From: Treponema primitia ZAS-2
GTDB lineage: Bacteria; Spirochaetota; Spirochaetia; Treponematales; Breznakiellaceae
Assembly: GCF_000214375.1 (NCBI RefSeq)
Contig: NC_015578.1
Location: 3,348,001-3,412,000, forward strand
Direction of reading: 5' to 3'
Length of the DNA: 64,000 nt
A program made the position numbers and the translations under genes. The notes under the pieces are model-generated. The model saw nothing but the letters and a program-made list of their open reading frames with translations. It had not been told where the DNA came from and did not search any database. This document shows, in pieces, positions 29,635-40,443 of this stretch. Numbering within the stretch: position 1 is the stretch's first letter; every line of letters starts with the position of its first letter.

Positions 29635-29975
29635 TGAAAATGATCTGTCCTATTTAATTGATATTGTAGATTGTATTCAGGACATAACTGAATTTACAAA
29701 ATCCATATTTTACAATGGGAAATATAATAGGATTAAGAAACAAACTGGCCCATGATTATGGAGAAATATTGGCAGAACGGATTTGGAATATTTCAAAAAC
29801 ATCCGTACCATCATTGTTAATTGAAATTGAAAAGATAGAAGAACTAAAAGAATATATTAAAAAAGTATCAGTCATTTATAATAACCTCTCTTTGAAAAAA
29901 TTCTATTGGATTTACAACAGATATTTGTGTTATCTGTTTTATAGGTTTATTGAGCATTTTTCTATCGGTCGTTAA
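29624..29975 (+). pseudogene. hepT: HepT (HEPN) toxin remnant with internal deletion and frameshift
   Basis: ATG 29624 opens a frame resembling the HepT N-terminus (LSYLIDIVDCIQDITEFTKSIF) that stops at 29755. Another frame from about 29715 carries the conserved HEPN active motif as GLRNKLAHDYG followed by ERIWNISKTSVPSLL. Compared with an intact HepT of about 135 residues, the central 50-60 residues are missing and the halves are out of frame. The 3' frame runs on into the end of the PIN gene, so its true end is also lost. Probably a broken toxin with the antitoxin left intact. Confidence 0.75.
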
Positions 29976-30356
29976 AACATAATCACATTGCATAAAATCT
30001 GCACACGCAACATGAAGTGAATCAACAACTTTCAAGCCTATTTTCTGTAGCTTCTCTGCCTCAAGTAAAATAGCCTCATTCTCAACGCAATGCAAACGTG
30101 CAATATTTTCCCATTGCATTATCCGGTCTTTGCGTTCAGAAAATGGGCTATTTCCTATTTCATAATCCAAAACATATGACCATGCAAGTTTATAATTCTT
30201 CGAAACAATTTGCTGCTGAATAAAAAGCTTTGCTTCTGTTTCAAACAGGATTTTTACCTGTGTTTGGTCATCATAAGGACGATTAAAACTACTATTATCA
30301 AGAAGGGAACCTTCGACCTGTTCGGTCTCGGTTGAGTGTTCAAGATATATTCTCAT
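29868..30356 (-). CDS. PIN-domain protein (VapC-like toxin)
   Basis: This 162-residue protein has a PIN fold with acidic residues in DNSSFNRPYDDQ, DYEIGNSPF, VDSLHVACAD and TTDRKML, the usual metal-binding set of RNases. Typical members start MRIYLDNSSFNRP; here about 14 residues (EHSTETEQVEGSLL) sit between MRIYL and DNSSF, an apparent in-frame insertion. No antitoxin gene is evident upstream. The 3' end overlaps the HepT remnant. ATG 30356 has GGAGGG at good distance. Confidence 0.83.
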   Translation of the reverse strand: MRIYLEHSTETEQVEGSLLDNSSFNRPYDDQTQVKILFETEAKLFIQQQIVSKNYKLAWSYVLDYEIGNSPFSERKDRIMQWENIARLHCVENEAILLEAEKLQKIGLKVVDSLHVACADFMQCDYVLTTDRKMLNKPIKQITQISVVNPIEFFQREVIIND

Positions 30357-30453
30357 TGTCTCCCTCCAACGTCTCTGCTTCTCCTTCCACTTAAATTATA
30401 TACCTGATATGTCGCAGTATCTAACCGATAGCAAGAATTGTATCTGACACATT

Positions 30454-31335
30454 TCATTTTGTTATATCACTTTTCATATATGCGTTTAAACAATCGCTGT
30501 TTGCTGCATATACTTGTGAAACACTATCGTCACAAATAAAATTATTATAATAATGAATATTATCACCATCTTTGATTATTAATTCTGTTGCTGTAAATGT
30601 TTCTGATAGCAATATCGCCAACTTCGGCGAAAATGGATAGTAAATTTCTGTTGAAGTTGTAGGGATTCCTGATTCTAATGATGTCGCCTTTAAATTTATT
30701 ACCGGTTGATCTCCAGTAATAAAATCAGAATTGGATTGATTAATTATAAGCAGGATTTTTGCATTTGATGACACCCAATTACCGATTATATCGGAGAAGA
30801 GAAAATTAAGAACATTCGCAAGTATATCAGGTCTTATTTCCGGAGAAACAAGCCGTGTAAAATTCTGAAAAGTAAATAGCTTTTTTATATTTTCTCTCAT
30901 TTTTTTGGTTCTACTATATTGAAAACCAATAAAAGCACTAAAATCATTTTTCTCTTTCTCATTATCAAAAAAGCTTAAATCATGTTTATAAATTTTTTTT
31001 ATTATTGGTATTCCTAAAGCCTCAATAAGAGAATGGTAATCTTCGAGACCTTCTTTCCTTAATAATTCTTCCGATGAATTGGCACAAAAGTTATAGTTAT
31101 CGAAATTGCTCCACATTAGTGCATGTGCTGTTTTGTCTAAGGAATTAATAAATTTTGCAATGAATTCAAATTCCGCCCGATTTAATGGCACTGCCTCGTA
31201 GAAATATTTTTCTTGAGCAATATTCATTAAATCAGTTTTAAACACTTGAGTCCTATTGCGTAAACACCATATTTTATCGCTTTCCGTCCATGGCTTTAAA
31301 TAATTTCTCCATACATAATGCTGCCGTTTTGTCAT
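30454..31335 (-). CDS. DUF4238 domain protein
   Basis: This 293-residue protein has the DUF4238 start (KRQHYVWRNYLKPW) and the SDFITGDQPVINL motif near residue 205. The function of the family is unknown; members occur in variable, defence-rich regions. The start ATG 31335 overlaps the stop of the restriction-modification gene (ATGA), so the two are translationally coupled. A+T-rich like its neighbours. No signal peptide or membrane segment. Confidence 0.82.
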   Translation of the reverse strand: MTKRQHYVWRNYLKPWTESDKIWCLRNRTQVFKTDLMNIAQEKYFYEAVPLNRAEFEFIAKFINSLDKTAHALMWSNFDNYNFCANSSEELLRKEGLEDYHSLIEALGIPIIKKIYKHDLSFFDNEKEKNDFSAFIGFQYSRTKKMRENIKKLFTFQNFTRLVSPEIRPDILANVLNFLFSDIIGNWVSSNAKILLIINQSNSDFITGDQPVINLKATSLESGIPTTSTEIYYPFSPKLAILLSETFTATELIIKDGDNIHYYNNFICDDSVSQVYAANSDCLNAYMKSDITK

Positions 31336-34187
31336 CCTTCCACCACCCCAATCTCCTCCTCCGTCAGCCCATACAACCGATATACCGCCTCGTTAATTTG
31401 CCCATCCACCGCTCCAATCTGCCTCTGAATCATCGTCTTTGCCTTTGGGTTCGGCTCTGCATGTTCCTGAAGTTTTAACTCAAGCATTTTGTCTACAAGT
31501 GCGACAAAATTGTCGTGGGCGGTTTTATCGCTTTTTTTTGAAAGATTAATGACGGGGATGGGGAGCTGCTCGACATGTGATTTCTTAACCTGTGCTAACG
31601 CTTCGCCTTTTTCGGGATTGATTATTTCGTAAATAAAGTTAAGTAATTTTGAATTTACCAATGCTAAATAAAACAATAGGCTCAAATCAGAATTATTGAT
31701 AATAATATGTAGGTTATCACGGCAAATAACACCAGGCCCTATAACCGTTGCAATCAATGAATCACCGGTTTGTCTGACAACAATTTTTTGTAAAGCAGTG
31801 AAAATAGCAGGATCTCGTGGAGCCGCCAGCCATTCACCATATTGTATCCAATAATCACTGTTCCATCTATTAGTATACCGATGGATTAAACTTCCTCGCA
31901 AAAGTGGAGACCATTCTTTTCCGGTTCTTTCCCCTTCCAACACATAGGGCTTTTCTTTCATCACACGATCTGATTGTGGCGGTTTCCCCTTCCCTTTTTC
32001 AAAGGGTTTCACACCATTATAAATATTACAGTAGTCGCTTAACGGGCGGCATTGTTGAATAATTTTGTTAAAAAGAATACGTCCCTTGGGATTCACGGTA
32101 ACATTTATAGGCGAACCGTCTTTTGGTATATCCGAAAATTGTACGGTATGCATTTGCGTTACTGCTTTATTTCTACAGACTTCGACATCAAAATAATCAT
32201 TTTCTTTTGGCACATTATAGTCAAATATTAAAACATGCGTATCAACAACCGCTTCACTAAAAACCTTTTCAGGCAAATACAGAATTTTACGCCAGCGGTA
32301 ACTTAAAGTCAAATACTGCCGTATTTTTCGATATGTTACCGATAAAAGCCATGTGTTTGAAACAATAACGCCAAATGTGCCGCTTTGTTTCAACAGTTTT
32401 GAATACTTTTCCAGAAATATCAAATACAAATCTTTCTGATAATCCTGATATTTATACATCCACTGAAAATAACGCTGAATTTCATCAGAAATCAAATATG
32501 TGTACGGCGGATTCCCAATCACCGCATCAAACCCACCAGCCTTGAACACCCCCGCAAACTCTTTATCCCAGTCAAAGCAATTCACTTTAAACTGCTCTTC
32601 GTCGCTCAAACCCAGATCGCCCTGAGCATAAAAATCAGTGCTGATTAAGCTATTGCCGCACTTGATATTATTTTCGAGCGAAGGCAGCAGCGCCATGTCG
32701 GAAAACCTGAACAGTTGTCCGCTGGCTTCGTTGCCTTCGTTTTCCAGCAGCTTGAGATAGAGCGAAAGCTTTGTAACTTCCACCGCCTGACTGTCGATAT
32801 CCACACCGTAAATATTGTTCTGTAAAATCTGCTGTTTTTCTGCAATGGTCAGCTTGTAAGCATCATGCGCTGCCTCATATATCTTTTCTTTTTTGATAGC
32901 AGCCTTTTTGTTTTTTCCGTTCGTGTAATAGTCAAGATGATAGTTAAGCAAATACTGATATGCACCTACCAAAAACGACCCCGAACCACAGGCAGGGTCA
33001 ACAAACCGCAGGGCGGCGATTTCATCCGGCGTCTTATCTTTTATAAGCATCCCAACCGTATTTTGCACAATATAATCAACGATGTACTGCGGTGTATAAT
33101 AAACACCGCCCGCTTTCCGTACTTCCGGTTTTTCTTCAATGACGGCGGAATGGCCGCCTTTTACACCCTTGAATCGTATGGTTTTGCCCAAAAACTTTTC
33201 GTAAATATTTCCGAGGATTTCCACCGGCAGTACTGCGAATTCATAGGGGCAATCGGGATAATACAGATTGACGATGATATTTGACAAAATCTTATTGTCA
33301 ATTCTAACTTGTTCTATCCAACTTTCCGGCTTGAATAACCCTGAATTGTATTTGATATTTGCCCTGATAAAAAGCTGGTTTAGATGTTCATATACGTTTA
33401 TGCTTTGCGACACCGTTTTAAGCAAATCAGCGTCCTCAATTCCTTTGGATTCGGCTATCCGCAAAAATAATATCCTGTCAATTGTTTTCTGAACAACCGT
33501 ATTGAGGTTATAAATTGAAATATCAGGATTCCGCAATGCAATGTTTTTGGCTAATTCTATGCGCCAATCTTCAACAAAAAACAACAGGTCTTCATCTATC
33601 GGCGTGGTACCTTTCTTGTTTTTATTTTCTTCGACATACCGATCAAAACTGCCTTTCAAGATGGCATTTTTTGAAAAGGTATTGCAGATAAAGTCAAACT
33701 GCTGCTCATACTCTTGGAAGGTACAGTAAAAAATCCGCGCTACACTTGCTTTGTCGCTTTTATCTGGTTTAATACGGGTATCATAAACAGCGAATTCGTC
33801 AAAATCGGTAAGTATTGAGAGGGGCAGTTTGGCGGTATAGGCATAGCGCCGTATTTGAAACGCGGGTTCGGGGTTGTCTTTGATATTGACTCCGGGCTTT
33901 TTGGCTTCTACGAAGAATTTCCGCATCCCACCTATTCTGAAACAATAGTCAGGGGCCTTTTGCTGGCCGTCAATTTTTACCTTGTCTTCCCGTATGACTT
34001 CACGATAATTTTCAGAAAACCCCTGTTCGTTCCGCACATCCCAATCAAGCATCTCAAAGAACTTGTCAATAAAGTCGGTACGGGCGTTGGATTCATCGTA
34101 GCCGCTGCTCTTGTATTGGGCATAGTTAGTCGAAAAAAGGGCGGTGAGGCGGGCTAACGCTTTCAGTTTCGGTGTTTCGTCGTTCAT
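31332..34187 (-). CDS. Type IIG restriction-modification enzyme (Eco57I-like)
   Basis: This 951-residue single-chain enzyme joins cleavage, methylation and target recognition. N-terminal nuclease: PDYCFRIGG then FFVEAKKPG (PD-ExK) at about residues 80-100. Methyltransferase: AGGVYYTPQYIVDYIV, motif I FVDPACGSGSFLVGAYQYL, GVDIDSQAVE and motif IV DAVIGNPPYTYL (N6-adenine type). The C-terminal 300 residues (LERTGKEWSPLLRGSLIHRY...) form the target recognition part ending in helices. It has its own promoter with almost no leader. The recognition sequence cannot be read from the protein. Confidence 0.92.
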   Translation of the reverse strand: MNDETPKLKALARLTALFSTNYAQYKSSGYDESNARTDFIDKFFEMLDWDVRNEQGFSENYREVIREDKVKIDGQQKAPDYCFRIGGMRKFFVEAKKPGVNIKDNPEPAFQIRRYAYTAKLPLSILTDFDEFAVYDTRIKPDKSDKASVARIFYCTFQEYEQQFDFICNTFSKNAILKGSFDRYVEENKNKKGTTPIDEDLLFFVEDWRIELAKNIALRNPDISIYNLNTVVQKTIDRILFLRIAESKGIEDADLLKTVSQSINVYEHLNQLFIRANIKYNSGLFKPESWIEQVRIDNKILSNIIVNLYYPDCPYEFAVLPVEILGNIYEKFLGKTIRFKGVKGGHSAVIEEKPEVRKAGGVYYTPQYIVDYIVQNTVGMLIKDKTPDEIAALRFVDPACGSGSFLVGAYQYLLNYHLDYYTNGKNKKAAIKKEKIYEAAHDAYKLTIAEKQQILQNNIYGVDIDSQAVEVTKLSLYLKLLENEGNEASGQLFRFSDMALLPSLENNIKCGNSLISTDFYAQGDLGLSDEEQFKVNCFDWDKEFAGVFKAGGFDAVIGNPPYTYLISDEIQRYFQWMYKYQDYQKDLYLIFLEKYSKLLKQSGTFGVIVSNTWLLSVTYRKIRQYLTLSYRWRKILYLPEKVFSEAVVDTHVLIFDYNVPKENDYFDVEVCRNKAVTQMHTVQFSDIPKDGSPINVTVNPKGRILFNKIIQQCRPLSDYCNIYNGVKPFEKGKGKPPQSDRVMKEKPYVLEGERTGKEWSPLLRGSLIHRYTNRWNSDYWIQYGEWLAAPRDPAIFTALQKIVVRQTGDSLIATVIGPGVICRDNLHIIINNSDLSLLFYLALVNSKLLNFIYEIINPEKGEALAQVKKSHVEQLPIPVINLSKKSDKTAHDNFVALVDKMLELKLQEHAEPNPKAKTMIQRQIGAVDGQINEAVYRLYGLTEEEIGVVEG

Positions 34188-34195
34188 ACTGCACT

Positions 34196-34232
34196 ATTAT
34201 AGGGCTTATTTTCCAAAGATTCAATAATCTTT
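34196..34232 (-). promoter_or_regulatory. Promoter of the type IIG gene with overlapping inverted repeat
   Basis: On the minus strand TTGAAT (34224-34219) and perfect TATAAT (34201-34196) are 17 bases apart; the -10 ends 8 bases before the start codon, giving a near-leaderless mRNA. A perfect 7-bp inverted repeat (34215-34221 with 34226-34232, loop CAAT) covers the -35 box and is a candidate operator. Confidence 0.65.
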
Positions 34233-34392
34233 AGCAGCAGACGACCGTAATCCCCTTACCAGGCAGCCACTTAATCCGCTCCTTCCAGGAGGGTTTGTCA
34301 GGCCAGCGGCCAAGAATGCGCAGATAACATTTTGCCGGCAGCCCGTTATTGGTGCAAAGGGCGTGGGGAAAACTATCCCGGTACTCCCCCAT
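34231..34392 (-). CDS. Short ORF of 53 residues, possible gene remnant
   Basis: ATG 34392 to TAA 34231. The translation (MGEYRDSFPHALCTNNG...WPDKPSWKERIKWLPGKG) looks protein-like and has codon use similar to the GC-richer host genes rather than to the island. I do not recognise it. The ribosome site is weak. It may be the remains of a gene cut by island insertion. Confidence 0.3.
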   Translation of the reverse strand: MGEYRDSFPHALCTNNGLPAKCYLRILGRWPDKPSWKERIKWLPGKGITVVCC

Positions 34393-34423
34393 TCCACAAT
34401 TTTAAAAAACATCATTTTTTAAC

Positions 34424-34448
34424 TGGTCTGGCAGTATTTGACAGACCA
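34424..34448 (+). promoter_or_regulatory. Candidate operator at the WYL regulator promoter
   Basis: Perfect inverted repeat TGGTCTG (34424-34430) / CAGACCA (34442-34448) with an 11-base spacer. The right half includes the shared motif RGC-N5-WTGACAGAYCA (34430-34448). A TATATT -10 element lies six bases downstream (34455-34460), so the site is in the promoter of the WYL gene. Confidence 0.6.
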
Positions 34449-34466
34449 ATATGCTATATTCATAGC

Positions 34467-35468
34467 ATGAAAGCAAGAAAAGCCATTCCAAAAACAGCCC
34501 TGCCCAGGCTGTATCGTATTGACGAGATGATCGCCTCCGGCAGGTACCCCAGCACCCGCCAGATGGCGGAAGACTATGGGACCAGTATGTCCAGCATAAG
34601 CCGAGACATTGAGTTTATGAAGTATAGCTTGGAAGCGCCCATAAAATACGATGCCCGGCGCCGGGGCTATTATTATTCAAAAAAAACCTTTCGCCTGCCC
34701 GGCAGCTTTACCACCACGGAAAATATACAGGCCCTGGGCATGGCCAAGACACTGCTTTCCCTGTACCGGGACACCCCGCTCTACGATGCCGCCCGGAACC
34801 TTTTGGAGAGCATTACCGCCCCTCTGGTTGACCGGAACAACCCCGGCCTGTATGAAAACAGGATTGTGGTGCCCCCGGTAGCCGCTTCCAATGTAGAAAC
34901 CGAAACCTGGAACACCATCACCGCGGGCCTCAAGGAGAACAAGGTCCTCGCCTTTACCTACCGGGGCGCCTGGGATGATGATTTTAAACCCCGCCGGGTG
35001 CGGCCCTATCAGCTCCTTTTTGACAACGGCGCCTGGTTTCTTTACGGCTATGCGGAAAAACGCCGGGCTATCAGGATGTTTAACCTTTCCCGAATAAAAA
35101 ATACAGCCCTCACAAAATATACCTTTACCCTTCCCCCGGATTACGATTACTGTTCCCGCGCCGATGGCAGCAACTTTGGCGTTTTCGCGGGGAATACAAA
35201 ATACCGTTTTTCTATTGTCTTTTATGAAGATTCAAAACTCTGGGTAAAGGAGCGGAAATGGGCGGCGGATCAGGTAATTGAGGAAACCGAAGAAGGAACG
35301 GTCATCATCTTTACCAGCACCCAATACGATAAAGTCCTGGAGTGGGTATTATCCCGGGGCTGTACTGCGGAACCCCTTGAGCCGGAGAACTTGGTAAAGG
35401 ACTGGAAATGGAACGCCGCAAGGATGCGGAAGATGGCTGGAGGAAAAAAGAGGGAGGGGGAAAATTAA
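34467..35468 (+). CDS. WYL-domain transcriptional regulator
   Basis: This 333-residue protein has an N-terminal winged helix-turn-helix (RLYRIDEMIASGRYPSTRQMAEDYGTSMSSISRDIEFM) and a central WYL domain (VLAFTYRGAWDDDFKPRRVRPYQLLFDNGAWFLYGY, then RMFNLSRI) with a C-terminal WCX-like part. WYL regulators control many defence islands (for example BrxR and CapW). ATG 34467 is chosen over the open frame to 34332 because the -10 box lies at 34455. No ribosome site is clear, so a short leader is likely. It overlaps the exonuclease start. Confidence 0.88.
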   Translation: MKARKAIPKTALPRLYRIDEMIASGRYPSTRQMAEDYGTSMSSISRDIEFMKYSLEAPIKYDARRRGYYYSKKTFRLPGSFTTTENIQALGMAKTLLSLYRDTPLYDAARNLLESITAPLVDRNNPGLYENRIVVPPVAASNVETETWNTITAGLKENKVLAFTYRGAWDDDFKPRRVRPYQLLFDNGAWFLYGYAEKRRAIRMFNLSRIKNTALTKYTFTLPPDYDYCSRADGSNFGVFAGNTKYRFSIVFYEDSKLWVKERKWAADQVIEETEEGTVIIFTSTQYDKVLEWVLSRGCTAEPLEPENLVKDWKWNAARMRKMAGGKKREGEN

Positions 35469-36018
35469 CTTTGTAACCATTGATTTTGAAACAGCGAAAT
35501 ACTCACGGGAAAGCGCCTGTTCGGTAGGCTTAGTCAAGTACAGAAAAGGCAAACCTGTTGATTCGTGGTATTCCCTGATCCGCCCACCATCGCTGTATAT
35601 ACGCCCGGATTTCACAGAGATCCACGGCCTTACGGTTGATGATGTCCGGGATGCCCCGACATTCGCCGATCTCTGGGACAGCAGCATCCGCCCCTTTGTC
35701 GGCAGCCTCCCCTTAGGCGCCCACAATGCCCCCTTCGACATGGGCGTACTCCGGGCTGTCCTTGAGTGGTATGATTTGCCGGTCCCGCAGCTCAGCTATT
35801 TTTGTACCCTTGCCCTGGCCCGCCGCGTATGGCCGGAACTGGAATCCCACGCACTTACCAGGCTGGGAGAAACCTTCGGCATTGTCTACGAAGCCCACAA
35901 CGCGCTTGATGATGCCAGGACCTGCGGGGCTATTGCGTGTTTGGCGGCGGAGAAGTTTGGCAGGAAAACTCTCAAGGGGCTGATTGGCGCTGCTGGACTT
36001 GGGTTAAGAGAAATATAA
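35464..36018 (+). CDS. DEDDh 3'-5' exonuclease, DnaQ-like, apparent ATT start
   Basis: The 184-residue product has all DEDDh motifs: Exo I DFET at residues 7-10, Exo II HNAPFDMGVL, Exo III HNALDDARTCG. The only in-frame ATG (35740) would remove Exo I and II. ATT 35464, directly after GGGAGGGGG, gives the typical family start (M)NFVTIDFET and overlaps the WYL stop (35466-35468), implying coupling. Stand-alone DnaQ-like exonucleases act in DNA repair or degrade foreign nucleic acid. The rare start codon would keep expression low and sensitive to IF3. Confidence 0.8.
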   Translation: MNFVTIDFETAKYSRESACSVGLVKYRKGKPVDSWYSLIRPPSLYIRPDFTEIHGLTVDDVRDAPTFADLWDSSIRPFVGSLPLGAHNAPFDMGVLRAVLEWYDLPVPQLSYFCTLALARRVWPELESHALTRLGETFGIVYEAHNALDDARTCGAIACLAAEKFGRKTLKGLIGAAGLGLREI

Positions 36019-36035
36019 TGGCGCTAAAATGGGAT

Positions 36036-36368
36036 TTATTTTTTATACCGTTTAGACATGGCGTCCGCCAAAGCGTTTACAGCGTCCAGATCAATTTGGT
36101 CAAAGGAAATAATGGACTTTACAATTTCTTCCAATGATGGATTGGAAGCATGACTGGTCCCTTCCCTGCCACTAAGGAGGTATTCCACTGACACCCCCAA
36201 AGCTTCCGCAATCAGGTAAGCCTCATCAGCCCGGGGGATGATATTCCGGGTTTTCCAGGAAGAGAAGGTGCCCTTGGGAATGCCCGTCTTCCGGTACAGC
36301 CATTCAAAACTGGTCTTTTGCCGGTCCACCTCCCCTTTAACCATCTTCCAGAAAAAATCAGCATTCAT
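36036..36368 (-). CDS. XRE-family regulator
   Basis: This 110-residue protein has an N-terminal helix-turn-helix (TSFEWLYRKTGIPKGTFSSWKTRNIIPRADEAYLIAEALGVSVEYLLSGRE) and a helical tail, similar in build to phage repressors and to the XRE protein at 12.1 kb. ATG 36368 lies three bases from the shared 19-bp motif at 36371-36389, which overlaps its promoter. It is a candidate reader of that motif, together with the WYL protein. Confidence 0.85.
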   Translation of the reverse strand: MNADFFWKMVKGEVDRQKTSFEWLYRKTGIPKGTFSSWKTRNIIPRADEAYLIAEALGVSVEYLLSGREGTSHASNPSLEEIVKSIISFDQIDLDAVNALADAMSKRYKK

Positions 36369-36370
36369 AT

Positions 36371-36389
36371 AGCAAATTATGACAGATCA
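36371..36389 (+). promoter_or_regulatory. Shared 19-bp motif, copy 2
   Basis: AGC-AAATT-ATGACAGATCA, fits RGC-N5-WTGACAGAYCA. It lies between the XRE start codon (36368) and the promoter of the opposite strand, so it may control both directions. Confidence 0.6.
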
Positions 36390-36414
36390 GTCTGCATAAG
36401 GGGATTATTATGGG

Positions 36415-36443
36415 TTGACAAATGTATGCATTTGAGGTATTAT
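36415..36443 (+). promoter_or_regulatory. Promoter of the zinc-module/nuclease operon
   Basis: Perfect TTGACA (36415-36420) and TATTAT (36438-36443) with 17 bases between. TATGCAT occurs in the spacer and again just after the -10. It gives a leader of nearly 300 bases before the gene at 36741. Confidence 0.65.
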
Positions 36444-36740
36444 ATGCATTATATTATTATTTTGCAGATATTTTTATTAGAAATTGACAAGGGTTAAGCA
36501 ATAGATGACAGATCAAGTGGGATAAGCTAAGTGAAGAATATGCGCTAGCATGAAAGTAAAGAAAATAGGAGGGTGTTATGATAGAAGCCTATCGTAGCAA
36601 TTGCACGTATACTTGGACGGCGGGCCGCATATTGGTTTGCTCATGGTCAGATTCAGGAGAAAGAAGAAGTTTATATTCCAATAATTAAATCCCTGGAAAT
36701 TTATCTTGGAAACCTGAAAAATTAAAGCAAGGAGATCTTT
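36444..36740 (+). other. Long leader region with a small ORF and shared motif copy 3
   Basis: Copy 3 of the shared motif is at 36497-36515 (AGC-AATAG-ATGACAGATCA), about 55 bases downstream of the -10. ATG 36578 after AGGAGGG opens a 36-residue frame ending at 36688; another frame over the same bases (ending near 36725 with SLEIYLGNLKN) looks more protein-like but has no start. This may be a frameshifted small gene or a leader peptide. No other gene is seen. Confidence 0.4.
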
Positions 36741-36980
36741 ATGGCAAATTACTATTGCAAATGGTGTGGGGTAAAACATTCAAGTGTTGCAAGTTTGACT
36801 GCAGGTCCGTGTCTAAGAAACCCTGTGAAAGGTGCAAAGCATGAATTGTACGAAGGTTCAGAAAAAAAGCAATATATCTGCAAATATTGCGGAATAAAAC
36901 ATTCATCCATAGCCAGCTTAACTTCAGCTCCTTGTTTAAAAAATCCAAGAAAAGGCGCAAAACATGAACCAGCCTTATAG
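36741..36980 (+). CDS. Small protein of two tandem C3H zinc-type modules
   Basis: This 79-residue protein is two copies of one module with spacing C-x2-C-x14-C-x9-H (C6, C9, C24, H34 and C47, C50, C65, H75), each with the phrase KHSSxASLT. The repeat period is 41 residues. Function unknown; the ligand pattern predicts two zinc sites and possibly nucleic acid or protein binding. Strong AAGGAG before ATG 36741. Its end overlaps the nuclease start by 17 bases, so the products are likely made together. Confidence 0.8.
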   Translation: MANYYCKWCGVKHSSVASLTAGPCLRNPVKGAKHELYEGSEKKQYICKYCGIKHSSIASLTSAPCLKNPRKGAKHEPAL

Positions 36981-38223
36981 TGGATTGACAATAAAAGAAA
37001 TTGATGCCTTTTTATCCCAAATTGGCATTCGTTTAGAAGAATTCAAAAACATTCGGAAAGCATATAGCCTTGAATGCGAAAAAGGTTTTAATATCTTTAA
37101 ATCCATTTCGGACACCTATTGGTATGAAAATCTGCATAGTGAAGTTTTGACTAGTATTCTAAAACCGCCATCGGAAAAAGGTATCGGTAATCCTGAATAT
37201 TTTAATATTTTCCTTGCCCTAATCAAGGAAAAAGCGAAAGAACAGGGCAAGAAAGTTGATATATCCTTTTTTAAAGACTATGGAGCTTTGAGGTTTAAAA
37301 CTCAATTCCCTGAAGGCGAAGAGCAGAAATATGGTAAAATGGATATTTTTATTTACAATGACGCTATGCTGAAAGATGGTAAGGTGCATGGAATTATAAT
37401 CGAAAATAAAATTAATTGGGCTAAAGATCAGCCAAATCAGCTTGTTAAGTATTTTCAGTTTGCTTCTGAAAAGGGAATAGTAATTGATTCTGTCATTTAT
37501 CTCCCAATGGAACATTACGAGCCGGATATGACTGTTACGGAAAGTGAATATTCTGCAATGATACCTGAGTTGAAAAAGAAGCTTTTAATTATCCCAGTGA
37601 TAGATAAGTTTAAAAAAAATATTATTCATGATTTTCTGGAAATCTGTTTAAATATCACAAAAAGATCGACCAAGGAGTATTTTTATTTAAATGACTACTG
37701 TAATTTAGTCAAAGAACTAGGAGGCATTGTTATGGAGAACAGTGAGCGAAAAAATATTCTCGCCCAGATATTAAAGGACAAATCAAAGTTTGATACCGTT
37801 TTACAAGTAAATGAAATACTTGATGATGCTGATCTGTTGGGCGAAATTATTTGTGATGAATTAGTGAATTCCAAAACAACGGGTAGAAAAAAATGGAAAA
37901 GAAATAATGACAAGGACGTTTATAAAGATTTTGATAATTTGGATGGGATAATATTGTCTTTTTGTCTTGGAAAATACAGCAAATGGGCATTTGGCGTTTG
38001 GTTCGAACCTGATTTTAAAAAATATGCGAAACGCATTGAAAAAAATCTTAATAAGGAATTTACTGAACACTTTTGTAGTGAAGCAAAAATTGATGATGGT
38101 TGGGTATATAAAAACTTTGATATTGATTTTTTTAAAAAGAGATCAATTAGCGAAGCTATTAATTTTCTAAAAATCCAATTTGATTTATTGGAAGAAAAAG
38201 TGGAGGAAATTATAAAATCTTAA
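36964..38223 (+). CDS. PD-(D/E)XK nuclease family protein (PDDEXK_4-like)
   Basis: This 419-residue protein has ENLHSEVLTSILKP near the N-terminus, then KMDIFIYND and IIIENKINWAKDQPNQLVKYFQF (about residues 122-165), which form the D...ExK core and the QxxxY helix of this family. The C-terminal half (from 250) is unassigned, with WAFGVWFEPDF suggestive of a folded domain. Very A+T-rich. Coupled to the zinc-module gene upstream; convergent with the VWA gene 13 bases downstream. Nucleases of this type are frequent in defence loci. Confidence 0.82.
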   Translation: MNQPYSGLTIKEIDAFLSQIGIRLEEFKNIRKAYSLECEKGFNIFKSISDTYWYENLHSEVLTSILKPPSEKGIGNPEYFNIFLALIKEKAKEQGKKVDISFFKDYGALRFKTQFPEGEEQKYGKMDIFIYNDAMLKDGKVHGIIIENKINWAKDQPNQLVKYFQFASEKGIVIDSVIYLPMEHYEPDMTVTESEYSAMIPELKKKLLIIPVIDKFKKNIIHDFLEICLNITKRSTKEYFYLNDYCNLVKELGGIVMENSERKNILAQILKDKSKFDTVLQVNEILDDADLLGEIICDELVNSKTTGRKKWKRNNDKDVYKDFDNLDGIILSFCLGKYSKWAFGVWFEPDFKKYAKRIEKNLNKEFTEHFCSEAKIDDGWVYKNFDIDFFKKRSISEAINFLKIQFDLLEEKVEEIIKS

Positions 38224-38236
38224 CTGCGTGTACACT

Positions 38237-39379
38237 TTATTCTACCCAACAACAACTTCCACGTTCACTCATCCATTTATAGTGTTGCTCGTAATTCTCT
38301 TTATTATTACATATCCAAAGTGTTTTCTTTGCGATATTTTTTGTTAGTTCAGGAATACTGGCATAGCCATCGGTAAAGATTATTAAGCCATCATAGTCCT
38401 TTATTTTCGATGAAAAATAATCAATGACAGGCTGAAAACAGGTGCCGCCCCGACCGGTTATTTTTATGGTTTTACGGGCTTTCTTCATTATTACTGGTAT
38501 GCCCTTAATGTCGGCATCAAATTGCAGTACGTCAAGAGATTGTATACCGTAATGAAAAAAGCGGGTTATAACGGAGTAGAAAAGATTGATATCCTCATCT
38601 GAAATTGAACCGCTCACATCAACCCCTATTAGAAGGCTGGTGGTAAATTCATATTTTTTGCCCATATACAAATAACCATAACGCCGACTCGATTTCAAAC
38701 GGGTAGGCATTTTTTTACTGGATAATACTGAGGCATGAAATCCTTGAAGAACTTTCCGGTAATCTATTACCGGATTCAGACTGGCAATTAAAGTTGTGAC
38801 CAGGTGATTTGGAAGACTTCCCCAAGATTGGTTCTGAATGGCAAAAGAAATTATTTCGACAATTTTTTGATCTATGTAGAGGTCTTCTTCCCATAGGGTG
38901 ACATTTTCAGAGAGGTTTTGGTTATTATCATCCTTTTCATTTTCATTTCCTTGAAAACTTGTTTTTTGTAATTCTGTGTAATAAAATTCAAAATTCCGCT
39001 GGTAAAATGACGGGTTATTCCAGAAATTAACAGCCCTGTAAGGCAAGCGTTTAAATTGGTAGTATTCATTCAAGGTTATATTACTGGCTATATATGATAT
39101 GGTGAGATCATTTTGAGATGGCTGCCGGTAGGGATGGCGCAGCAATATGCGGATAACTTCGATTTTTATAATCTCTTCAAATTGATCGTCAGACAAATGT
39201 GAAATATATTCCGGGTTATATTCGATACGACCCTTACCGCTCCGGATTGATTTTATATTTGCGGCAGGAACTAAATCATGGGATAACAAAGTCATTAACA
39301 AAACCGGGTCACGCAATAACCATTTATCGGTAATATTCGATATGCGCTTTTCAGTCATAAGTTGTGGCGTATTGTTCAT
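38237..39379 (-). CDS. VWA-like protein (DUF2201 type)
   Basis: This 380-residue protein has an N-terminal metallopeptidase-like helical part (LLMTLLSHDLVPAANIKS...) as in DUF2201 proteins and a C-terminal VWA domain with a MIDAS: DVSGSIS (about 250), GGTCFQP and FTDGYA. Such proteins work with MoxR-type ATPases. Its start overlaps the ATPase stop (ATGA), and it is the last gene of the three-gene operon. Ends in an odd SERGSCCWVE tail. Confidence 0.87.
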   Translation of the reverse strand: MNNTPQLMTEKRISNITDKWLLRDPVLLMTLLSHDLVPAANIKSIRSGKGRIEYNPEYISHLSDDQFEEIIKIEVIRILLRHPYRQPSQNDLTISYIASNITLNEYYQFKRLPYRAVNFWNNPSFYQRNFEFYYTELQKTSFQGNENEKDDNNQNLSENVTLWEEDLYIDQKIVEIISFAIQNQSWGSLPNHLVTTLIASLNPVIDYRKVLQGFHASVLSSKKMPTRLKSSRRYGYLYMGKKYEFTTSLLIGVDVSGSISDEDINLFYSVITRFFHYGIQSLDVLQFDADIKGIPVIMKKARKTIKITGRGGTCFQPVIDYFSSKIKDYDGLIIFTDGYASIPELTKNIAKKTLWICNNKENYEQHYKWMSERGSCCWVE

Positions 39380-40443
39380 AATTTTATATTTTTAATAAAA
39401 TCAACAATATGTTGATAAATGAACGGCGACCCTGAAAGAATGGCAATTTTTGTTTTAGGATAAGTTACGCTGTCGTAGAGTGTAGTCCAATGGGCAAGCG
39501 CCTCGTTCCGTTTATTTTCATACATCCACTTGGTATACAGCTCAAGGTTTTCAATGTACTTCTTGATTGTTTTCTGATCCCCTTCTGTCTCTATTGTACG
39601 GAACATACCTTCATTTAAAGAAGTTAATTCGTGAATATCCAGAGTGTTCAAATATTTTTTACTGGCAGTAAATCCGGATAAAATAGTTTTTGCATTAATA
39701 CGGGAATTATTTTTGACAAACTGGGAGAATTTAAGGGCTGCGCTTATGCCAACAATACCGGCAATGGCTTTCTCAATTATTTTATTGATTTCCTTGATGC
39801 CAGAAATTATTTCCGATACCCGCCGCCAGGAACGTCGATCAGGACTTTTTTCCAGCCCCGCATCAATATTGGTATTGCTGTCAAGACAATCAGGATTTTC
39901 TTCGATAAATCCAATTACCCGACCGTCAACCTTGTTCTCTGCAACCCAAAGCAGCCACTCAGCGGGGCTGGGTGAAAAATAATATATGTTAAAGCGGGAA
40001 ATTAATGCGGGATCCAATTCCGTTAATTGGTATTCTTCCCCTTCGTTAACCGCCGATATAATTCGGCTTCCCGCTGGCAATTTTTTACCTGCCAGGGTTT
40101 TATTGAGGGTCAAGTCCATAACGGTTTGTAAAATTTCAGGGCGGGCATGATTCAGTTCATCCAAAAAGAGAACTATAGGTTTACCGTCAGTAGGAAACCA
40201 CCATGGCGGTCGAAACTCGGTCTTCCCCAAATCCGCATCCAGTACAGGCAACCCGATAAGATCCCCGGGGTCGCTCATCTGCCCCAGAAAAAGAGAAACC
40301 ACCTGGCTGGAATGGCTTTTAAAATAATGCTCAATAATTTCAGATTTACCAATACCATGCCTGCCAACCAGCATGATGTTATGTTGGGATGGCGTAATTT
40401 CCAAAATTTTTAGCAGTTCGACGGCGTTTATTTTTATCCCCAT
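39376..40443 (-). CDS. MoxR-type AAA+ ATPase
   Basis: This 355-residue ATPase has Walker A GRHGIGKSE (about 27-35), GDLIGLPV, Walker B PIVLFLDELNHARPEI, sensor region RIISAVNEG and an arginine-finger-like ALISRFNIYYF. MoxR ATPases act as chaperones that load or remodel partner complexes, usually with a VWA protein, here encoded directly downstream. Starts three bases after the unknown 234-residue gene. Confidence 0.9.
   Translation of the reverse strand: MGIKINAVELLKILEITPSQHNIMLVGRHGIGKSEIIEHYFKSHSSQVVSLFLGQMSDPGDLIGLPVLDADLGKTEFRPPWWFPTDGKPIVLFLDELNHARPEILQTVMDLTLNKTLAGKKLPAGSRIISAVNEGEEYQLTELDPALISRFNIYYFSPSPAEWLLWVAENKVDGRVIGFIEENPDCLDSNTNIDAGLEKSPDRRSWRRVSEIISGIKEINKIIEKAIAGIVGISAALKFSQFVKNNSRINAKTILSGFTASKKYLNTLDIHELTSLNEGMFRTIETEGDQKTIKKYIENLELYTKWMYENKRNEALAHWTTLYDSVTYPKTKIAILSGSPFIYQHIVDFIKNIKL

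Follow-up and report, generated by a model that had tools for sequence, protein, structure and literature searches.

The window, i.e., the whole stretch of 64,000 nucleotides analysed here from the genome of the termite-gut spirochaete Treponema primitia ZAS-2 (a single contig of 4,059,867 bases), carries a lower-GC stretch at 29868–40443 that looks like a defence island. Within it lie a gene for a WYL-domain regulator and, directly downstream, a gene for a putative DEDDh exonuclease, both of which match PADLOC models labelled as CRISPR-associated. The features on which the argument draws are as follows (window coordinates, with strand where recorded):

31332–34187, type IIG restriction-methylase-like gene
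34467–35468 (+), WYL-domain regulator gene, 333 amino acids (WYL E = 6.5e-17, WCX E = 4e-05)
35437–35439 (+), CTG in the exonuclease frame, a possible but poorer start (Shine-Dalgarno, SD, −6.3 kcal/mol)
35450–35457 (+), SD helix GAGGGAGG, with a 6-nt spacer to the ATT (−12.8 kcal/mol against the ZAS-2 16S tail)
35464–35466 (+), ATT at the orthologous start codon (canonical codon aligned in 35 of 38 relatives)
35464–36018 (+), putative DEDDh 3'–5' exonuclease gene with an apparent ATT start, 184 codons plus stop (open frame, RNase_T match and alignment of relatives)
35482–35493 (+), Exo I motif DFET, residues 7–10 (D7, E9)
35725–35739 (+), Exo II motif NAPFD, residues 88–92 (D92)
35740–35742 (+), ATG, the first canonical in-frame start, 3' of the Exo I and Exo II residues and without an SD
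35896–35913 (+), Exo III motif HNALDD, residues 145–150 (H145, D150)
36036–36368 (−), CI-type HTH gene
36964–38223, PD-(D/E)XK nuclease gene, matching PDC-S26
38237–40443, VWA-like/AAA gene pair

The product of 35464–36018 is a putative 3'–5' exonuclease of the DEDDh (RNase T/DnaQ-like) type: it matches RNase_T (PF00929) over residues 4–156 with 58 bits against a cut-off of 24 (E = 2.2e-15), and all five catalytic residues, as assigned by motif position, are present (D7, E9, D92, H145 and D150). By sequence, its top match among solved structures is the PolC-type exonuclease domain 2p1j (E = 2.2e-11). It also resembles the 3'–5' exonucleases of the NF004844/PRK06195 type over model positions 1–172 of 309 (E = 4.7e-47), but its 160.9 bits fall below the cut-off of 373 for that family, and the rest of the model is absent both from the ZAS-2 protein and from its relatives.

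In the exonuclease frame the nearest stop 5' of the ATT is TAA 35395–35397, and the frame is open from 35398. A scan from this stop to ATG 35740 found no ATG, GTG or TTG, which bears out the claim of the initial annotation that none precedes the Exo I motif; among CTG, ATT, ATC and ATA codons, those 5' of DFET are CTG 35437, ATT 35464 and ATT 35479. Thus, every canonical in-frame start of the 184-codon frame comes after the conserved N-terminus, as would be expected of a natural AUU start. As ATG 35740 encodes residue 93, a product starting there would be without D7, E9 and D92, and this codon scores +0.9 kcal/mol for an SD. The truncated protein from 35740 that gene callers had been expected to report would hence lose these catalytic residues in every case, and an annotation rule limited to ATG, GTG and TTG would cut off the first 92 residues, including three of the five catalytic ones.

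Relatives were collected from contig and genome searches, giving 69 loci, 68 of which match in a script search and 57 of which are distinct, the window's own included. The comparison set consists of the 38 distinct relatives with at least 55% identity, one of which (L040) is only a 41-residue match, with 79–83% identity over just 41–43 residues; 18 distinct relatives below 55% were left out of the count. The closest full-length relative found (L004/L042) is 76% identical, and the genus is represented by five genomes including ZAS-2, the exonucleases of the four congeners being 69–74% identical. Comparison of orthologues, which the initial annotation had suggested as a check on a start at 35464, places a canonical codon opposite the ATT in 35 of the 38 relatives (ATG in 33, GTG in L018 and TTG in L053), with ATG in all four congeners compared. 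The other three start further upstream, by one codon in L060 (ATG) and L015 (TTG) and by three in L029 (ATG). Since 35 relatives have ATG, GTG or TTG at the aligned codon and the other three begin within one to three codons of it, 35464 is the ancestral start site of the gene. None of the 38 relatives has ATT there, in keeping with the rarity that had been ascribed to such starts; the non-canonical codon is thus not conserved, as it might have been in support of a natural AUU start, and on this comparison it is private to ZAS-2, i.e., to one genome among those compared. Among the 18 relatives below 55%, the aligned codon is ATG in 11 and ATT in none, and one (L062) has CTG inside a longer open frame. 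Viral contigs yielded one distant relative (38% identity), and the ATT junction had no exact counterpart in them. The exonuclease of L012, on a contig labelled Betaproteobacteria, falls inside the Treponema tree, perhaps through a binning error.

The ATT is preceded by a purine-rich tract (GGGAGGGGG, 35452–35460), within and beside which the paired SD bases were read from the duplex output. The resulting −12.8 kcal/mol is lower than at any other of the 39 loci scored, L022 coming second with −12.4 and L029 giving −2.4 at its ATG, with the proviso that all relatives were scored against the ZAS-2 16S tail. A value of −12.8 kcal/mol or lower is reached at 0.63% of 63,978 window positions (every second base, both strands) and by two of the 40 open frames with 250 or more codons, each taken at its best candidate start. 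In the predicted local fold much of the SD is paired, while the ATT is unpaired.

The SD lies in the tail of the WYL gene, which ends in TAA 35466–35468, so that T 35466 serves both as the third base of the ATT and as the first base of the WYL stop, and the two genes have five bases in common. Were this TAA missing, the WYL frame would continue to TGA 35481–35483, with a 20-nt overlap. The initial annotation had noted a strong ribosome site, an overlap of one base with the WYL stop and a shift of that stop if the codon were ATG; each of these holds, no stronger site being present among the 39 loci scored. A WYL gene stands directly 5' of the exonuclease gene also in L005 and L013, and in L009 the match is to the C-terminal part of WYL only. 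The WYL TGA falls within ATGA in L013 and L009, giving the four-base overlap that is common in such pairs, and a 2-nt gap separates stop and start in L005; the close layout is therefore not peculiar to ZAS-2. Compared with those of the relatives, the ZAS-2 WYL tail extends further and is rich in purines, and its end falls in another frame relative to the exonuclease. In L006/L045 the two genes are 926 bases apart, and the intervening DNA (L006:915–1840) has a 275-codon open stretch that is hydrophobic and probably encodes a membrane protein.

The gene appears to be maintained as a coding frame. It aligns end to end with 36 relatives (L015 and L040 being excluded for their short frames), whose frames run to 182–196 codons from the aligned codon, and it keeps 50 of the 51 columns in which their conservation reaches 95% or more. 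Against L004, dN is 0.17 and dS 1.57; in six other pairs with the ZAS-2 gene dS is 1.7 to 3.4, i.e., near saturation, or not computable. In a tree with an unsettled bootstrap, the ZAS-2 end branch measures 0.31, the median being 0.29. These values show an intact frame under purifying selection over the branch as a whole, which need not cover the time after the codon change. Matches with E ≤ 0.001 occur in 105 of 146 related genomes and matches of at least 55% identity in 21 of 146, own genome included in both counts and many genomes being incomplete; because the close orthologue is so patchy, the gene is accessory and dispensable. The close relatives that were examined include no copy that is clearly broken. 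L015/L049 was considered as one and rejected, as its frame just stops sooner, at codon 168, and retains the whole catalytic part.

As for the initiation machinery, ZAS-2 has a gene for IF3 (infC), whose most likely start is TTG, the first canonical codon of the frame, behind GGAGG, with no need for an ATT start; hence there is most likely no sign in ZAS-2 of the AUU–infC loop known from Escherichia coli. An altered initiator tRNA reading AUU was also considered and set aside: a search allowing up to three mismatches found one initiator-like locus, with anticodon CAT, and AUU would therefore pair with the ordinary initiator tRNA, mismatched at the third position. IF3 discriminates against such a mismatch at the start codon in the bacteria studied (PMC5472188, PMC2268962), and by analogy the ZAS-2 exonuclease start would be expected to depend on IF3.

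Natural AUU starts, also under a strong SD, are on record, and the ZAS-2 gene would add one more: AUU opens infC (PMC5472188) and pcnB (by a reference title in PMC13009471) in E. coli and cvfC1 in Staphylococcus aureus (PMC13009471). The two E. coli genes share the AUU start with the ZAS-2 exonuclease but are different genes, and the autoregulation that infC exerts through its AUU is not indicated in ZAS-2. A parallel can be drawn with cvfC1, where an extended, very strong SD likewise carries the AUU; in poor medium, the three non-canonical S. aureus sites that were assayed reached about 10% of the AUG level (PMC13009471). The cvfC1 AUU, however, is conserved among staphylococci and was shown by retapamulin ribosome profiling and reporters, whereas the ZAS-2 ATT, a start predicted from sequence, occurs in one genome with canonical relatives. 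In Streptomyces, IF3 represses the GTC start of sigR, which belongs to a translationally coupled pair (PMC5472188). This gene would share with the ZAS-2 exonuclease a non-canonical start in a coupled gene pair that limits the dose. It differs in its codon, in being the first gene of its coupled pair and in having been shown by experiment. More generally, weakened start codons tend to accompany stronger SDs (PMC5622118). Natural AUU starts are very rare, an ancestral AUG having become AUU in 1 of 61,358 starts in the survey reported there, with near-cognate starts strongly selected against (PMC5622118). Among the papers listed in literature searches on AUU/ATT starts, coupling, IF3 and WYL with DEDDh, nothing was recognised as the ZAS-2 gene, and in a review of coupling (PMC12548453) no mention of AUU or non-AUG starts was found. 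What sets this case apart is that relatives pin down the ancestral start and that, among the genomes compared, ZAS-2 alone has the change.

These observations can probably be best seen as a lineage-specific switch to ATT at 35464, giving a weak AUU start helped by a strong SD and by coupling to WYL, and this is the reading that we adopt as a working one, with moderate confidence. The ancestral start, canonical and most likely ATG, became ATT in the ZAS-2 lineage, a codon change seen by comparison. The 30S subunit would be held by the unusually strong GAGGGAGG helix six bases 5' of the ATT, ribosomes terminating WYL at the overlapping TAA would open the weak structure over the SD, and the ordinary initiator tRNA would bring formyl-Met to the AUU, initiating there at only part of the rate of an AUG, the outcome being a WYL-coupled DEDDh exonuclease at low level. 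The exonuclease is thus probably made at low level only, and its gene is one that gene-finding rules could misread. In favour of the weak AUU start are the canonical aligned codon in relatives and all four congeners, an SD that leads the 39 loci as scored and stands in the top 0.63% of sampled window positions, the want of a canonical in-frame start before Exo I, the conserved columns, catalytic residues and dN/dS described above, the close WYL–exonuclease layout in L013, L009 and L005, and the cvfC1 precedent (PMC13009471). Against it, much of the SD is paired in the predicted fold, the purine-rich tract that supplies the SD could have arisen as the WYL tail drifted by chance, the ATT is seen in one genome only, the close orthologue is patchy, and the relatives' SD scores relied on the ZAS-2 16S tail. 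With the ancestral start placed to the codon, the locus offers a clean test case of whether a strong SD and a stop–start overlap can rescue an AUU.

The same ATT could instead mark a recent loss of the start codon, with little or no functional exonuclease made and the frame still undecayed, i.e., a hypomorph or early pseudogene. The dN/dS values and intact motifs that favour the weak AUU start are compatible with so recent a loss, the gene is patchy and dispensable, and near-cognate starts are as strongly disfavoured as the survey figure above implies (PMC5622118). We nevertheless regard such a loss as unlikely, if deserving of serious thought: frame, length and catalytic residues are kept on a branch that is not faster, close relatives offer no clearly broken copy, and the strongest SD of the 39 as scored is unexpected for a drifting start. 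Conversely, a bolder version of the weak AUU start would make the ATT a selected throttle, in which one base change both weakened the exonuclease start and supplied the WYL TAA 35466 and the SD became very strong, so that output would follow WYL translation and be subject to gating by IF3; this we hold to be distinctly doubtful.

That the true codon is ATG and the assembly in error at 35466 is improbable. ATG stands at that codon in the four congeners, but substitution errors seldom fall on one particular base, and another base at 35466 would carry WYL on to TGA 35481–35483, with a 20-nt overlap unlike the junctions of L005, L009 and L013. The genome is, moreover, a single contig, given as complete under CP001843 in PMC5039349. 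Slightly less probable again is entry elsewhere, at CTG 35437 or by slippage from WYL in the A6 (35444–35449) or G5 (35456–35460) run, into an extended or fused protein: the frame is indeed open back to 35398 and both homopolymer runs are present, but the CTG has the weaker SD (−6.3 against −12.8 kcal/mol), L005, L009 and L013 encode WYL and the exonuclease in separate frames, and an in-frame stop lies within nine codons 5' of the aligned codon in 19 of 38 relatives, so that an N-terminal extension of that length is not conserved. A double −1 slippage from the WYL into the exonuclease frame was rejected on sequence grounds, as the relatives simply start at ATG.

Upstream of the WYL gene itself, an extended −10-like box, TGCTATATT (34452–34460), ends six bases 5' of its ATG 34467. 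This ATG lacks an SD (−0.3 kcal/mol), and WYL may possibly be read from a leaderless mRNA. A consensus promoter scan omitted this site, there being no −35 match at normal spacing, and TGnTATACT followed by 6–7 bases to the ATG recurs in four of five relatives inspected (L005, L013, L071 and L072, the exception being L074). The region 34424–34468 further contains the inverted repeats TGGTCTGGCA/TGACAGACCA (90%) and ATGCTAT/ATAGCAT, the latter extending into the WYL start codon. As TGACAGA also stands 5' of the CI-type HTH gene at 36036–36368 (−), an operator common to this gene and WYL is possible.
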